Source of the DNA: Betaproteobacteria bacterium Ga0077527
GTDB taxonomy: Bacteria; Pseudomonadota; Gammaproteobacteria; Burkholderiales; SG8-41
NCBI GenBank assembly: GCA_001464815.1
Contig: LNDW01000024.1
Span: 192,712 to 256,711, forward strand
Direction: 5' to 3'
Length of the DNA stretch: 64,000 bases
Of the stretch, positions 34,192-46,756 are shown one piece after another (within the stretch, counting starts at the first letter, position 1; each line of letters begins with the position of its first letter). The notes under the pieces are model-generated. The model had not been told where the DNA came from and made no database searches. It saw only the letters and a program-made list of their open reading frames with translations. The position numbers and the translations under genes were made by a program.

Positions 34192-34320
34192 TTAGCCACA
34201 TAGGGCACAGACGACACAGAGAAAACCCAAGCCTCAAGAATTCAGGCTTTTGCATAAACGAATGCACCGAGGGGAGCCTGGCTAGTTTTGAAGTTCTCTG
34301 TGACCTCTGTGGCTGCTTTT
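34192..34320. repeat. CACAGAG-type inverted-repeat element, copy 2
   Basis: The left arm (34194-34223: AGCCACATAGGGCACAGACG onward) and the right arm (34293-34315) are inverted copies. They match the arms of the element at 2527-2668, including the identical right-hand CTCTGTGACCTCTGTGGCTG. The roughly 70-bp centres of the two copies are unrelated. This copy lies between the EVE gene and the 6S RNA terminator. Confidence 0.82.
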
Positions 34321-34364: not shown

Positions 34365-34371
34365 GTTGTGG

Positions 34372-34552
34372 GGTCCCCCGCTTGTGCCGTCGCAGACCAG
34401 CATCCTGAACCAAAGGTTCAAGAGGGCCGCCTTCCGGATTTCTTCAGGCACATCCGCGTGGGACGCGCACACCGAAACCGCTTTGGTCGGCAGCCTGTGC
34501 AATGCTTATCGGTTCAAAGAATATATGGCCCGGACAAACACCGCAGGGGATT
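34372..34552 (-). ncRNA. ssrS: 6S RNA
   Basis: The region holds no credible protein gene and follows zapA on the same strand, the usual place of ssrS. The two ends can pair: a CCCCTGCGGTG segment near 34549-34539 with CACAAGCGGGG near 34386-34376. The middle is an irregular open region. Near the 3' part, CTTGAACC-TTTGGTTCA (34422-34405) forms the small hairpin typical of proteobacterial 6S RNA. Length of about 180 nt also fits. 6S RNA mimics an open promoter and binds sigma70-RNA polymerase in stationary phase. The ends given are approximate. Confidence 0.85.
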
Positions 34553-35286: not shown

Positions 35287-35329
35287 CGCGTTGTCCTGGA
35301 CGCGGCGCGACCGCAAGCGCTGGCGTCCG

Positions 35330-35600
35330 GATGTGATCCAGGTGCCGGCTGCCCGCAAGGGCGGCCGGTGAAACGGGAAACAGGTGCGGCCAGCAGGATT
35401 GAGGACTGAGGATTGAGGATCGAGTGGATAAGCCCACCGGTCTCTCAGTTCCCAGTCCTCAATCCTGCCCCAAAGCCTGTGCTGCCCCCGCAACGGTAAG
35501 CAACCGCATCCTTAACGGATGCAACGACGCACCACTCGCCACTGTTCCTGCTGGAACGGGAAGGCGGTGCGCTCGGGTTGTGAGCCCGGAGACCGGCCTT
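35330..35600 (+). promoter_or_regulatory. Cobalamin riboswitch with an enlarged L5 loop
   Basis: Conserved parts occur in order: GGTGCC (35341), ACGGGAA (35373-35379), the P5 pair ACAGG (35380-35384) with CCTGT (35476-35480), GCTGCCCCCGCAACGGTAAG (35481-35500), CACTGTTCC... GGGAAGGCG (about 35540-35566) and AGCCCGGAGACCGGCCT (35583-35599). These define a B12 riboswitch upstream of btuB. Loop L5, normally under ten nucleotides (for example TGCGAAT), is expanded to about 90 nt by a palindromic insert. A T-run at 35657-35663 downstream could belong to an expression platform. Adenosylcobalamin binding would normally reduce btuB expression. Confidence 0.9.
35390..35472. repeat. Palindromic insert inside riboswitch loop L5
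   Basis: A perfect 15-bp inverted repeat (CAGGATTGAGGACTG at 35394-35408, with its reverse complement at 35453-35467) surrounds 44 nt. The left arm also contains a direct repeat of AGGATTGAGGA (35395 and 35410). If the insert is removed, L5 becomes a short TGCGG-AAG-type loop closed by CAGG/CCTG, as expected for this riboswitch class. This looks like insertion of a small mobile palindrome. Confidence 0.75.
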
Positions 35601-35730
35601 GATCGCCGTATGGAAATGCCGCGGGGAAGCGGCGTCCGGCGTTCACGCGCGGTGCGTTTTTTTGCTTCCCTGGTGCGGTGTTTCCTCGTTGACTGATCAG
35701 CACGCGGCGGGCGTGTATACGAGGGATTGC

Positions 35731-37869: not shown

Positions 37870-37883
37870 GTCTGGCCGCAGCG

Positions 37884-37916
37884 ACAAAAAGGCCGCGCCT
37901 GGCGCGGCCTTTTTGT
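37884..37916. terminator. Bidirectional terminator after btuB
   Basis: A GC-rich hairpin (GGCCGCG-CCTGG-CGCGGCC, 37891-37909) is flanked by five A residues on the left and five T residues on the right, with further pairing of the flanks (CGACAAAAA / TTTTTGTCG). It lies about 15 bp after the btuB stop and separates it from msbA. Confidence 0.88.
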
Positions 37917-38007
37917 CGCCCCTTTTCCGCTGCCCTTGCCGGCTTTGCTTTGGGTCCAAGTTTTCCTTAATTATCAAAAGTTTGCTATTGTTCGGCCCGT
38001 GCAAACG

Positions 38008-43764: not shown

Positions 43765-45318
43765 GTGCTGTTCAATTCCCACGCTTTTATCTTCCTGTTT
43801 CTGCCGCTGACGCTGCTCGGTTTTTTTGCGCTCGGCCGCTTCAGCATGAAACTGGCGGCCGGTTGGCTGGCCGCGGCTTCTCTGCTGTTCTATGGCTGGT
43901 GGAGTCCGGCCTATGTCTCCTTGCTGGTGGCTTCCATCCTCGGCAATTTTTTTGCCGGCTCGGCGATTGCAAGGGCACAGGCGGGCGGTGATACGGCGCG
44001 CAGCCGGCGGTTGCTGCGGCTGGCGATCATCGCCAACCTGCTGCTGCTGGCGTATTACAAATACGCCAACTTTTTTGTCAGCAACTTCAACACTCTCAGT
44101 GGAGCCGGTCTGAACATCGGCGAGATCATCCTGCCGCTGGGCATTTCGTTCTTCACCTTTACCCAGATCGCCTTTTTGGTGGATGCCCATCAGGGCAAGG
44201 CGCGCGAGTACGACCTGGTGCACTACGGCCTGTTCGTCACCTACTTTCCGCACCTGATCGCCGGACCGATCCTGCATCACGGCGAAATGATGCCGCAGTT
44301 CGCACGCCGCGAAATCTACAGGCCGCAGCATGACCTGATCGCCGCCGGACTGACGCTGTTTGTGCTTGGCCTTGCGAAAAAAGTGCTGATCGCCGACGGT
44401 GTCGCGCCTTACGTCGGACCGGTGTTTGATGCGCCGGGCGCTGGCGTGACACTGACCCTTCTCGAGGCCTGGTGCGGCGCGCTGGCCTATACCTTCCAGC
44501 TTTATTTTGATTTTTCCGGTTATTCCGACATGGCGGTGGGCCTGTCGCTGATGTTTGGCGTGCGCCTGCCGCTGAATTTCCAGTCGCCGTACAAGGCGGT
44601 GAACATCATCGACTTCTGGCGGCGCTGGCACATGACGCTGTCGCGTTTTCTGCGCGACTACCTGTACGTGCCGCTGGGCGGCAACCGCAAAAGCCGCGTG
44701 CGGCGCTATATCAACCTGCTGGTCACCATGCTGCTCGGTGGCCTCTGGCATGGCGCGGGCTGGACCTTCGTGCTGTGGGGCGCGCTGCACGGACTCTATC
44801 TGGTGATCAACCACGGCTGGCGTGAACTGCGCCGCCGCCTCGGCCAGGACATCCACCGCACGACGCCATGGGGCCGCCGCGCCGGCTGCCTGCTGACCTT
44901 TGTCGCGGTGGTGGTCGGCTGGGTGCTGTTCCGCGCGCCGGATGTGGCGACCGCGAAGGCCATCCTCTGCGCGATGGCCGGGTTCAACGGCGTGGTGCTG
45001 CCGGAAGTCTGGCTGGCCAGACTCGGTGCGGCCGGCCAGACGCTGCAGCAACTCGGCATTGGCTTCGGTGCTACGCCGGCACTGGCACGCACCGGCGTGC
45101 TGAACTGGATCTGGGTGCTGTTGCTGGTGGTGTGGCTGGCACCGAATACGCAGCAGATCATGGCCGCGGCAAAACCGGCGCTCGCCGCGCTGCCCGAGGC
45201 TGTTTCGCGACTGCAGTGGAGAGTGTCCTTGCCCTGGGCACTGCTGACGCTGGCGCTGCTGCTGGCGGTGGTCGTCAATCTCGACCGCCATTCCGAGTTT
45301 CTCTACTTTCAGTTTTAA
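43765..45318 (+). CDS. MBOAT-family O-acyltransferase (AlgI-like)
   Basis: A 517-residue polytopic membrane protein. The signature segments QLYFDFSGYSDMAVGLSLMFG near residue 248 (quoted start YFDFSGYSDMA), FWRRWHMTLSRFLRDYLY near 286 and the catalytic His in LGGLWHGAGWTF near 327 are present. AlgI-type proteins carry an acetyl group across the membrane for polysaccharide O-acetylation, working with an SGNH partner. It starts with GTG at 43765. The partner is the next gene, separated only by a nested palindrome. Confidence 0.92.
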   Translation: MLFNSHAFIFLFLPLTLLGFFALGRFSMKLAAGWLAAASLLFYGWWSPAYVSLLVASILGNFFAGSAIARAQAGGDTARSRRLLRLAIIANLLLLAYYKYANFFVSNFNTLSGAGLNIGEIILPLGISFFTFTQIAFLVDAHQGKAREYDLVHYGLFVTYFPHLIAGPILHHGEMMPQFARREIYRPQHDLIAAGLTLFVLGLAKKVLIADGVAPYVGPVFDAPGAGVTLTLLEAWCGALAYTFQLYFDFSGYSDMAVGLSLMFGVRLPLNFQSPYKAVNIIDFWRRWHMTLSRFLRDYLYVPLGGNRKSRVRRYINLLVTMLLGGLWHGAGWTFVLWGALHGLYLVINHGWRELRRRLGQDIHRTTPWGRRAGCLLTFVAVVVGWVLFRAPDVATAKAILCAMAGFNGVVLPEVWLARLGAAGQTLQQLGIGFGATPALARTGVLNWIWVLLLVVWLAPNTQQIMAAAKPALAALPEAVSRLQWRVSLPWALLTLALLLAVVVNLDRHSEFLYFQF

Positions 45319-45611
45319 GAGCGCCTGACAGCATGAAACACGTGTGCGTTACAGCCAGAATCAGCCCTGACACGAAGCGCGGCGCGGCTCATATCGCGAA
45401 TATGAGCAAGCCGCGCGACAAAGTCAGGGCTGATTCTGGCTATAACCCGGTGATTTCGTTGGGTGTTCATGGTTTGTTTGGGGCTGGCGCGATTTTGGCC
45501 GGAGGCGGCGTCGCGGTCCTTGCGAATATTCCCGATATTCGCTGCGGACCACCCCTTGCCTCCAGCCAAAATCGTGTCAGCGCATCACGCGTTTCATGCT
45601 GTCGGGCCCTC
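45319..45611. repeat. Nested palindrome able to form a three-way junction
   Basis: An outer inverted repeat (45319-45348 with 45581-45611; perfect over GACAGCATGAAAC at 45327-45339 with 45591-45603) encloses two separate hairpins. Arm A pairs 45349-45371 with 45423-45445 (22 of 23) and has an inner stem GCTCATAT/ATATGAGC with a 5-nt loop. Arm B pairs 45491-45506 with 45558-45573 (15 of 16), with inner stems GGTCC/GGACC and GCGAATAT/ATATTCGC and a 5-nt loop. The element begins directly after the MBOAT stop codon and ends 2 nt before the ATG of the next gene. No transposase is present. Confidence 0.9.
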
Positions 45612-45613
45612 TA

Positions 45614-46756
45614 ATGACCCCGCGTGCCTACAACGGATGGGTCATCGGCGGGCTGCTGGTGCTGCTGGCACCGGTGCTTGCGCTTAACCTGATGCTGCTC
45701 GCCAACGACATCCGCCATGACAAGAACCGCCTGGCCAGCCGCTGGCAGCAGCAGACGGGTGGTGTCACCTACGCACCGCCGATCAGCCAGAACCGCGCCT
45801 TCAAGACCCTGCGGCTGGCCGACCGTTTGCCGGAAGCCGATACCATCGTCTTCGGCTCGTCAACGATGATGTCGCTGACCGCCGATGTTTTTCCGCCGCC
45901 ACTGCGCGTCTACAACTTCGCGCAAAGCGGCAACTCTCTGCTCAGCGTGATCGGCGAGGCGCAGGCGCTGCTTGAACTGCCGCAGGCGAAGCCACGGCTG
46001 CTGGTGATTCCCCTCGACTGGTCGCTGGGTTTTTTGCAGCAGGCGGGTGAGGTGCCGCCAATCAGTCTCGATCCCGCGACGCTGCCGCCGCAGCAGGCGC
46101 TGCCCTGGCCCGCTCGTCTGCGCGAGGCGCTGAGCCTGCCGCGGCTGCAGCTGCTGATGACCGGCCTGCGCGATGTTGCAGCAGCGGATGATCCGCTGGC
46201 GGCGGCGCGGCAACTGCTGTTCGAGGCCTCGGGTGCGGATTATCGCTGCTCCGATGGCGTGCCGGCCCGCGATTTTGATCCGAGCTTTCGCGGGCAGTGT
46301 GTCGGTTTTCGCGCCGACGGCAGCGCCACCTTTGCCGACCAGAAGCGGGTGAGCGAGGGGGCGGCCGCGGCCGTGCTCGCCCAGGCGGCCAGCGCCACCT
46401 CGCAGTATGCGCGGGCCCTGCAAACACCGCTGGCGGCGACCCTGCCCGATCAACTCGCCGCGCTGCAGCGACGGGCGCGCGACCGCGACGTAAGAATCCT
46501 GTTCCTGATGCCGCCGCTGCTGCCAGGGCTCGAGGCGCGGCTTGCAGCTTCCGCGCACAGCGGCGCGCAACTGGCAGCGATCAAGACGGCGCTGCTGGAC
46601 GGGACCCGGCACGAACGCTTGATGATGGTCGATGCCGGCCCGTCAGAACATTACGGCTGCGTCGCGAGCGAGTTCATTGACGCACACCATGCCCTGCCGG
46701 CCTGCTACCGTAAGGTTTTTGCCCGCATTGAAGCCCAGGGCCTGCTCCGGAGATGA
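45614..46756 (+). CDS. SGNH-like membrane-anchored protein, partner of the MBOAT
   Basis: A 380-residue protein with one N-terminal transmembrane helix (IGGLLVLLAPVLALNLMLLA) and a periplasmic domain. The nucleophile block FGSSTMMSLTADVF near residue 81 resembles SGNH block I, and a C-terminal DAHHALPACY offers Asp and His. DltD/AlgJ/AlgX-like partners complete acetyl transfer started by an MBOAT protein. The ATG at 45614 lies 2 nt after the palindrome and lacks a clear ribosome site; ATG 45596, inside the palindrome, is the other option. Confidence 0.72.
   Translation: MTPRAYNGWVIGGLLVLLAPVLALNLMLLANDIRHDKNRLASRWQQQTGGVTYAPPISQNRAFKTLRLADRLPEADTIVFGSSTMMSLTADVFPPPLRVYNFAQSGNSLLSVIGEAQALLELPQAKPRLLVIPLDWSLGFLQQAGEVPPISLDPATLPPQQALPWPARLREALSLPRLQLLMTGLRDVAAADDPLAAARQLLFEASGADYRCSDGVPARDFDPSFRGQCVGFRADGSATFADQKRVSEGAAAAVLAQAASATSQYARALQTPLAATLPDQLAALQRRARDRDVRILFLMPPLLPGLEARLAASAHSGAQLAAIKTALLDGTRHERLMMVDAGPSEHYGCVASEFIDAHHALPACYRKVFARIEAQGLLRR

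Follow-up and report, generated by a model that had tools for sequence, protein, structure and literature searches.

The MITE, transposons that lack a transposase of their own, are usually described as shrunken insertion sequences (IS), the interior of which has little meaning. The IS5 groups duplicate at the target either 3 bp of the form TNA (IS1031-type) or the 2 bp TA (IS427-type). The REP and REPIN are short hairpins with a GTAG-type tag and are mobilised by a REP-associated tyrosine transposase. The attC sites contain an R-box motif, serve as recombination substrates in the form of folded single strands and are more conserved in structure than in sequence.

Several bacterial representatives have been described. 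Chunjie, a MITE of Geobacter uraniireducens, measures 235 bp and is located in an operon, and MITE transcripts are presented in the same account as stable stem-loops (PMC10969869). In Pseudomonas syringae, MITEPsy1 is a 100-nt MITE, assigned to the family 'IS5?', that was trapped after transposition, and the ends of MITEPsy2 resemble those of ISPsy30, a Tn3-family element; the REPIN are introduced in that report as REP doublets that form hairpins (PMC3189936). The REP themselves are given a size of 20-40 bp (PMC3733652).

The window analysed here is a stretch of 64,000 nucleotides from the Betaproteobacteria bacterium Ga0077527 (contig LNDW01000024.1). A 293-bp element occupies window positions 45319-45611, between MBOAT, a membrane acyltransferase gene whose TAA stop ends at 45318, and the next gene, whose ATG starts at 45614 (Table 1). 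Positions 45319 and 45611 are the transposon ends as judged from related copies, and the gap between the two genes consists of the element plus two duplicated bases. A sequence-only reading of this DNA had described a nested palindrome filling the space from the MBOAT stop to the next start. Its placement was right to the base, with outer arms that enclose two hairpins, and so was its description of the hairpin tips, each formed by an 8-bp stem and a 5-nt loop and each containing GCGAATAT. Regarding the neighbouring genes, the MBOAT name is upheld by a Pfam match (1.6e-37), whereas the downstream open reading frame that was called SGNH has no Pfam hit. A coding reading of the palindrome was rejected, the open reading frame that runs through the element having no Pfam hit either. 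The predicted RNA fold of the element has an energy of -183.2 kcal/mol (z -15.6; none of 200 shuffles is as good), and its two outer ends pair with each other. The right end also provides, at 45596-45613, an in-frame ATG that lies six codons 5' of where the next gene natively starts; the insertion may thus lengthen the encoded protein.

Table 1. Parts of the element between the MBOAT gene and the next gene, in window positions
Part	Position	Strand	Basis
Left target duplication TAA, doubles as MBOAT stop codon	45316..45318		TAA recurs at 45612-45614
Left terminal inverted repeat (outer stem), GAGCGCCTGACAGCATGAAACACGTG	45319..45344	+	arm pairing, alignment of related copies
Outer arms, 27 nt, 89% complementary	45318-45344 / 45586-45612		
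Hairpin 1 (hp1), sense on + strand; three stacked stems, conserved internal loops	45344..45448	+	model score 101.8 bits
Hairpin 1 arms, 24 nt, 96% complementary	45348-45371 / 45423-45446		
hp1 2x2 internal loop, 5' side with closing letters, GAAG	45374..45377	+	A2 columns 35-38
hp1 tip: 8-bp stem, loop CGCGA	45387..45407	+	predicted fold, alignment
hp1 2x2 internal loop, partner side, CGAC	45416-45419	+	A2 columns 79-82
32-nt linker between the hairpins, also predicted to pair	45449..45480	+	predicted fold
Hairpin 2 (hp2)	45481..45583	-	hp1 model match on - strand, 80.6 bits
Hairpin 2 arms, 24 nt, 88% complementary	45483-45506 / 45558-45581		
Right terminal inverted repeat	45586..45611	-	arm pairing, alignment of related copies
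Right target duplication TAA; final base doubles as the A of the following ATG	45612..45614		flank comparison

The window holds further palindromes and structured sequences. Inverted pairs of short tandem runs (e.g. CACAGAGG, GGACTGAGGATTGAG) at 2529-2663, 34206-34311 and 35393-35468 represent another kind of intergenic palindrome, and the last of them falls within the region that the cobalamin riboswitch model covers (Rfam RF00174, 92.9 bits, 35323-35615). A 6S RNA (RF00013, 76.1 bits) is found on the minus strand at 34371-34552, and a perfect 19-bp hairpin with a 1-nt loop at 37881-37919 looks like a two-way terminator.

The genome of the host contains seven copies of the element, the window copy included. 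Two of the others are 92% identical over all 293 bp, one is 85% identical, and the remaining three are shorter, partial or more diverged (82, 75 and 83%). Two of the six own-genome copies examined (L001, L007) are located precisely at the TAA that terminates a mechanical reading frame upstream of them. The ends of the element are sharp, GAG..CTC, typically with TTA or TAA on each side; the flanks of the window copy are TAA and TAA. Among 40 non-redundant end pairs of the window-copy type, which include 50-bp forms and a few pairs from other phyla, identical 3-bp TTA/TAA flanks are present in 27, compared with 14.8 on average and at most 23 in 500 re-pairings of the flanks. The identity reaches 4 bp in none of the 40 pairs, and 13 pairs lack a perfect duplication. 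Longer elements with the same ends (301-507 bp; L058, L044, L049, L086) also occur, and L086 has an extra hairpin in place of the hairpin 1 tip, a sign that insertions may be nested.

A search of the 21 genomes of the genus recovered the MBOAT protein in 13, and the junctions were compared there, leaving aside L244, where the contig ends too early, and G012, the locus of which was not fetched. In nine congeners the MBOAT gene and the next gene adjoin without the element, and in six of these nine the stop and the start overlap as TGATG. Another congener, G001, has an insertion of its own at the same junction, in the opposite orientation and offset by 1 bp. This element is a relative with 68% identity, flanked by TTA and TCA, i.e. 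by an imperfect duplication. The simplest reading of both sequences is that the window and G001 elements represent two independent insertions at one junction, neither of which damaged a reading frame. The window element would have landed in TTTTAATG (the site minus the element and one TAA), leaving both frames whole, at a junction where the MBOAT stop probably overlapped the next start codon before the insertion.

Its location exactly between the two genes, together with the separate insertions at this junction in two species of the genus, might suggest a cis-acting regulatory RNA specific to the operon, which sets the ratio of MBOAT to SGNH. The separate insertion in G001 is compatible with tolerance as well as with an effect on expression. 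On the other hand, the nine congeners manage without the element, the same element is present at other sites of the same genome, and the pattern search detected neither a terminator nor a promoter at the element. An operon-specific regulator is accordingly quite improbable.

The element is short, gene-less and multi-copy and shows both terminal inverted repeats and target-site duplications, which are the features of a MITE. Judged by its sequence, it is a dispersed gene-less transposon-like repeat of this kind, with 26-bp ends and TWA duplications. A candidate partner was recognised in a relative (L088), where GAGCGCCTAACAAAATGA and GAGCCCCTAACAAAATGA delimit a 902-bp insertion sequence that has a TAA duplication and contains a two-frame transposase (DDE_Tnp_1, 7.1e-21; IS5_3, NCBIfam NF033580, 3.5e-39). 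The first 18 letters of the window copy agree with the first end of this IS at 15 of 18 positions, and those of sister copies such as L003 at 17 of 18. The host's own genome yielded no intact partner IS, only one weak transposase match of 66 residues (40% identity); its assembly is 91% complete, and repeats that collapse during assembly are often missing.

A second lineage is represented by the complete genome G247, where the cloverleaf is matched at 25 places (26 hits). Its cloverleafs and an IS of about 855 bp carry an identical 19-nt end, GAACCCATTTCATAAATAG. Five of the ten stretches fetched at single ends hold this IS (L317, L318, L322, L323, L325), with TA on both sides in all five, and the two frames of the transposase in L322 match NF033580 at 6.1e-32 and 1.6e-33. 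By their sequences, then, each of the two lineages, which differ in their ends, has an IS5-family partner to match: the ends are common to the gene-less and the autonomous element in both, the partners in L088 and L322 encode a DDE transposase of IS5 type, and the duplications (TWA for family-A ends, TA for the G247 IS) follow the IS5 rule. An IS5-family transposase acting in trans would move the element, as the ends, the targets and the partner elements suggest. The sequence-only reading had proposed a mobile palindrome moved by a transposase encoded elsewhere, and had pointed to further copies, duplicated targets and empty sites as the places to look for it; the seven copies, the 27 duplicated flanks, the nine element-free junctions and the IS5-family elements with matching ends now support that proposal strongly.

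Other elements have the same interior behind other ends, e.g. GGGCCTGTTAACA types, GAACCTATCTCA types and more. On the hp1 tree, which is poorly resolved, in which L277 is mislabelled and from which six unlabelled rows were dropped, the end types show 10 changes of 6 labels, compared with 27.6 in shuffles; this is only suggestive of ends that mostly follow the core, with some switches. Inverted pairs with family-A-like ends were also noticed in L107, L116, L132 (Nitrospinota), L172 and L129 (Planctomycetota), so such ends seem to be widely spread. The family-A ends read GCCTAAC...GTTAGGC, letters that fit R boxes and that would allow the element to be viewed as an integron attC or attC-like recombination site. 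Only the family-A ends fit, and R-box letters at both ends are not a property of all members; this candidate was rejected since the other members have quite different ends. The 3-bp flanking duplications and the IS5 partners account for the ends as well, which leaves an attC site with hardly any probability.

The elements follow a common order: end stem, hairpin 1, a small hairpin, hairpin 2 and end stem. The small hairpin, AACCC-N2..6-GGG, is found between the big ones in 74 of 96 distinct elements and completes a four-way cloverleaf, the window copy and its closest kin being among the 22 of 96 without this exact motif. Forms reduced to the terminal repeats (about 50 bp) and forms with a single hairpin also exist. 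The stems of hairpin 1 were compared in two alignments. In the first (A1; 46 of 51 candidates, almost exclusively from the bacterial family of the host), two-sided change is seen at 29 of 37 pairs and 94.9% of the cells are paired, against 28-39% in slid controls. In the second (A2; 56 of 58 sequences sampled across the order, the 58 hand-picked for diversity from about 96), two-sided change extends to 32 of 37 pairs and to 462 cells, and 93.5% of the cells are paired compared with 30-40% in slid controls. None of 500 shuffles matches A2 in any of five covariation measures; these shuffles ignore relatedness, which the slid controls retain. The pairing of the arms, which the sequence-only reading had offered for a covariation check, passed it. 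One element, L120, has the same architecture with very different stems and is in neither alignment.

The internal loop of hairpin 1 behaves differently from a stem. Its columns 37 and 80 are never a Watson-Crick pair: they are C..A in 34 sequences and A..G in 22, with no exception among the 56. On a tree built without the loop columns, their state changes at least 10 times; three independent pairs lie on well-supported branches and all are concordant, a number too small for significance (sign test, p 0.25). A looser pattern count, over 152 units of hp1 and hp2, is also dominated by these two combinations; a few units deviate. Taken together, the alignments indicate a cloverleaf of two inverted hairpin units that is conserved by compensatory change and found behind many end types.

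A simpler account would be an ordinary MITE with a decaying palindrome, whose structure persists through self-repair by template switching and through the youth of its copies. Template switching could keep the arms complementary without selection, and this could explain part of the Watson-Crick covariation. The arms are indeed very complementary, some genomes (G247) hold many copies with equal model scores, and the internally deleted 50-bp and single-hairpin forms imply that the interior is not strictly needed for mobility. However, template switching would turn the loops into perfect pairs, whereas columns 37 and 80 keep their two mismatched states in every sequence, and the two-sided stem changes point the same way. 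The ordinary MITE is for these reasons unlikely, and a MITE with a selected fold is the reading adopted here, with a probability of about 0.8.

The hairpins also differ in the strand on which they make sense. Hairpin 2 of the window copy has no match to the hp1 model on the plus strand at E <= 0.01 and is matched on the minus strand, so both hairpins are regarded as inverted units. When read in unit orientation, the consensus pairs contain G.U and A.C at a ratio of 201:23 in 100 hp1 and of 69:43 in 45 hp2, counted on the best 150 of 224 model hits. Model-based hits may favour G.U over A.C; an earlier set of 39 elements (39 of 50, after 11 truncated or nested-insert elements were dropped), which comes from BLAST and pattern hits only, gives 89:18 for hp1 and 23:10 for hp2. 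For hairpin 1, the consensus pairs give a firm strand signature, and such a one-strand ratio is a further point against an ordinary, decaying MITE. The minimum energy is lower on the plus strand for hp1 in 44 of 50 cases, for hp2 in only 14 of 50 and for the whole element in 37 of 50. The cruder count of G.U in the individual minimum-energy folds yields 118 on plus against 114 on minus for hp1, and 140 against 95 for hp2. This count disagrees with the strand signature, and the direction of hairpin 2 is therefore uncertain.

Both the covarying loop columns and the excess of G.U in hairpin 1 point to action as a single strand, and the presence of two inverted units argues for a role that is available in either orientation. 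On the sequence evidence the fold probably acts as a single strand, RNA or DNA. Each hairpin would be retained because, folded as a single strand, it works in the direction in which it reads, and the two inverted copies would ensure one sense hairpin whichever strand is transcribed or exposed. The favoured guess places the action of the fold in RNA, where it would soften the insertion into transcripts through processing, stability or anti-polarity; this role is given somewhat less than an even chance.

The main alternative to the RNA role is the folding of single-stranded DNA during transposition. A single strand would fold into the cloverleaf at replication forks or in supercoiled DNA, bring the ends together and raise transposition, perhaps with a host factor that binds the junctions or mismatches. 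The selfish benefit would be direct, the fold is common to elements with different ends, and the pairing of both ends in the predicted fold agrees with it. Copies show no bias towards the direction of replication, however: 53 of 93 copies in seven complete genomes are co-oriented with it (p 0.21), a result by which lagging-strand targeting as in IS200/IS605 was also rejected. This count draws on genomes in which the contig opens with a dnaA motif (8 of 18 examined) and leaves out G581 (44 hits with weaker scores), the place in G247 with hits on both strands and the hits presumed to be second hairpins beside a better hit. In G116 the orientation of the first 10 copies seemed biased, but the figure fell to 14 of 20 once further copies were counted. 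A single strand that folds as a whole also predicts hairpins with the same sense strand, whereas the consensus counts and the energies put hairpin 2 on the other strand; the raw G.U count in individual folds does not. A cloverleaf acting at the level of DNA is considered rather unlikely, though a serious candidate.

The distribution of the fold was followed in genome samples. In the order sample, the hp1 model is matched at E <= 1e-6 in 106 of 399 genomes and 55 of 158 genera. With a broader model, matches were obtained in 93 of 369 genomes (73 of 272 genera) of the class sample and in 66 of 398 genomes (39 of 213 genera) of the phylum sample, 42 of these 66 lying outside the class. Loci were inspected by eye, because the samples partly overlap and the E-values are rough. 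The inspection covered 26 of the 29 new class-level loci (all except L345, L365 and L366): 19 contain the whole cloverleaf, three a single hairpin between the ends (L350, L351, L360), three are degenerate or unclear (L343, L355, L357) and one is at a contig end (L349). At the phylum level, where 14 of 17 chosen loci were viewed and three short contigs were skipped, the cloverleaf is present in all 14, four of them from other classes. A plain DNA search with the 293-bp sequence gave no match when 40 genomes from the order's other families were scanned; kinship is thus seen in structure and not in plain sequence.

Plasmids carry related copies as well: two of Azotobacter chroococcum, one of a Halomonas and one of Pseudomonas aeruginosa. 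The plasmid copies show 70-75% identity across 73-80% of the query (about 75% across 80% in A. chroococcum), and the gene table, which is incomplete, lists no feature beneath them; the G247 element has no match in the plasmid collection. Two loci stand apart by their labels. L120 (JACPSQ010000028.1), labelled Candidatus Omnitrophota, reflects either a binning error or wide transfer, and L165 (CAMATZ010000040.1), in a metagenome bin labelled Bordetella parapertussis, contains an element like those of uncultured betaproteobacteria, so that this bin may be mislabelled. The resemblance to viral terminal repeats that the sequence-only reading had suggested has nothing but shape in its favour, and a viral terminal repeat was discarded as a candidate, the related element L376 having no match in phage records.

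A broader interpretation within the MITE with a selected fold regards the interior as an ancient, independently maintained module. It would be a single-stranded RNA or DNA fold, marked by a conserved purine loop, that survives across the phylum between the ends of whichever IS5-type IS is available, a parasite of parasites defined by structure and not a decayed IS, with two inverted copies that serve either orientation. This interpretation is tentative, its chance being nearly even. With a model of hairpin 1 matched in about a quarter of the sampled class genomes, a functional fold would be a common and uncatalogued structured element in the transcripts or the DNA of Pseudomonadota. It would also offer a way to ask how non-autonomous elements keep pace with changing transposases and how such elements enter operons harmlessly.

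The catalogues were searched for a described counterpart. In Rfam release 15, neither the element nor any of 11 related loci has a match that reaches the gathering score, and at E up to 10 there are only five sub-threshold matches, the best being a plant-type microRNA model (26.9 bits, compared with a gathering score of 88). Full-text literature searches gave no description of the cloverleaf family, which is weak evidence of absence given the thin coverage of subscription journals in the texts searched.

Among the known systems, the attC sites share with the present elements a structure that is more conserved than the sequence. The present elements differ from attC in their direct duplications and symmetric ends, and the members with other end types lack attC-like letters. 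The REP and REPIN are likewise dispersed, non-autonomous and made of inverted hairpin units. Unlike REP, the present element has long terminal repeats, target duplications and DDE (IS5) partners; its size, ends and duplications point elsewhere than to REP/REPIN membership. The IS5-family IS (NF033580) have matching terminal repeats in the L088 and G247 lineages and TA/TWA targets. The cloverleaf contains no transposase gene, whereas the interiors of the two IS inspected are transposase sequence and not cloverleaf.

The closest systems are the bacterial MITE. The end sequences of MITEPsy1 and MITEPsy2, as given in the account of these elements, both differ from those of the present elements (PMC3189936). 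Bacterial MITE of the Chunjie type are, like the element described here, short and gene-less, with terminal inverted repeats, target duplications and many intergenic copies, one of them in an operon; the portrayal of these MITE in that source, as far as it concerns their structure, includes no fold conserved by covariation across families with different ends, unlike the present case (PMC10969869). In the cloverleaf elements conservation falls on the interior, and it is the ends that vary.
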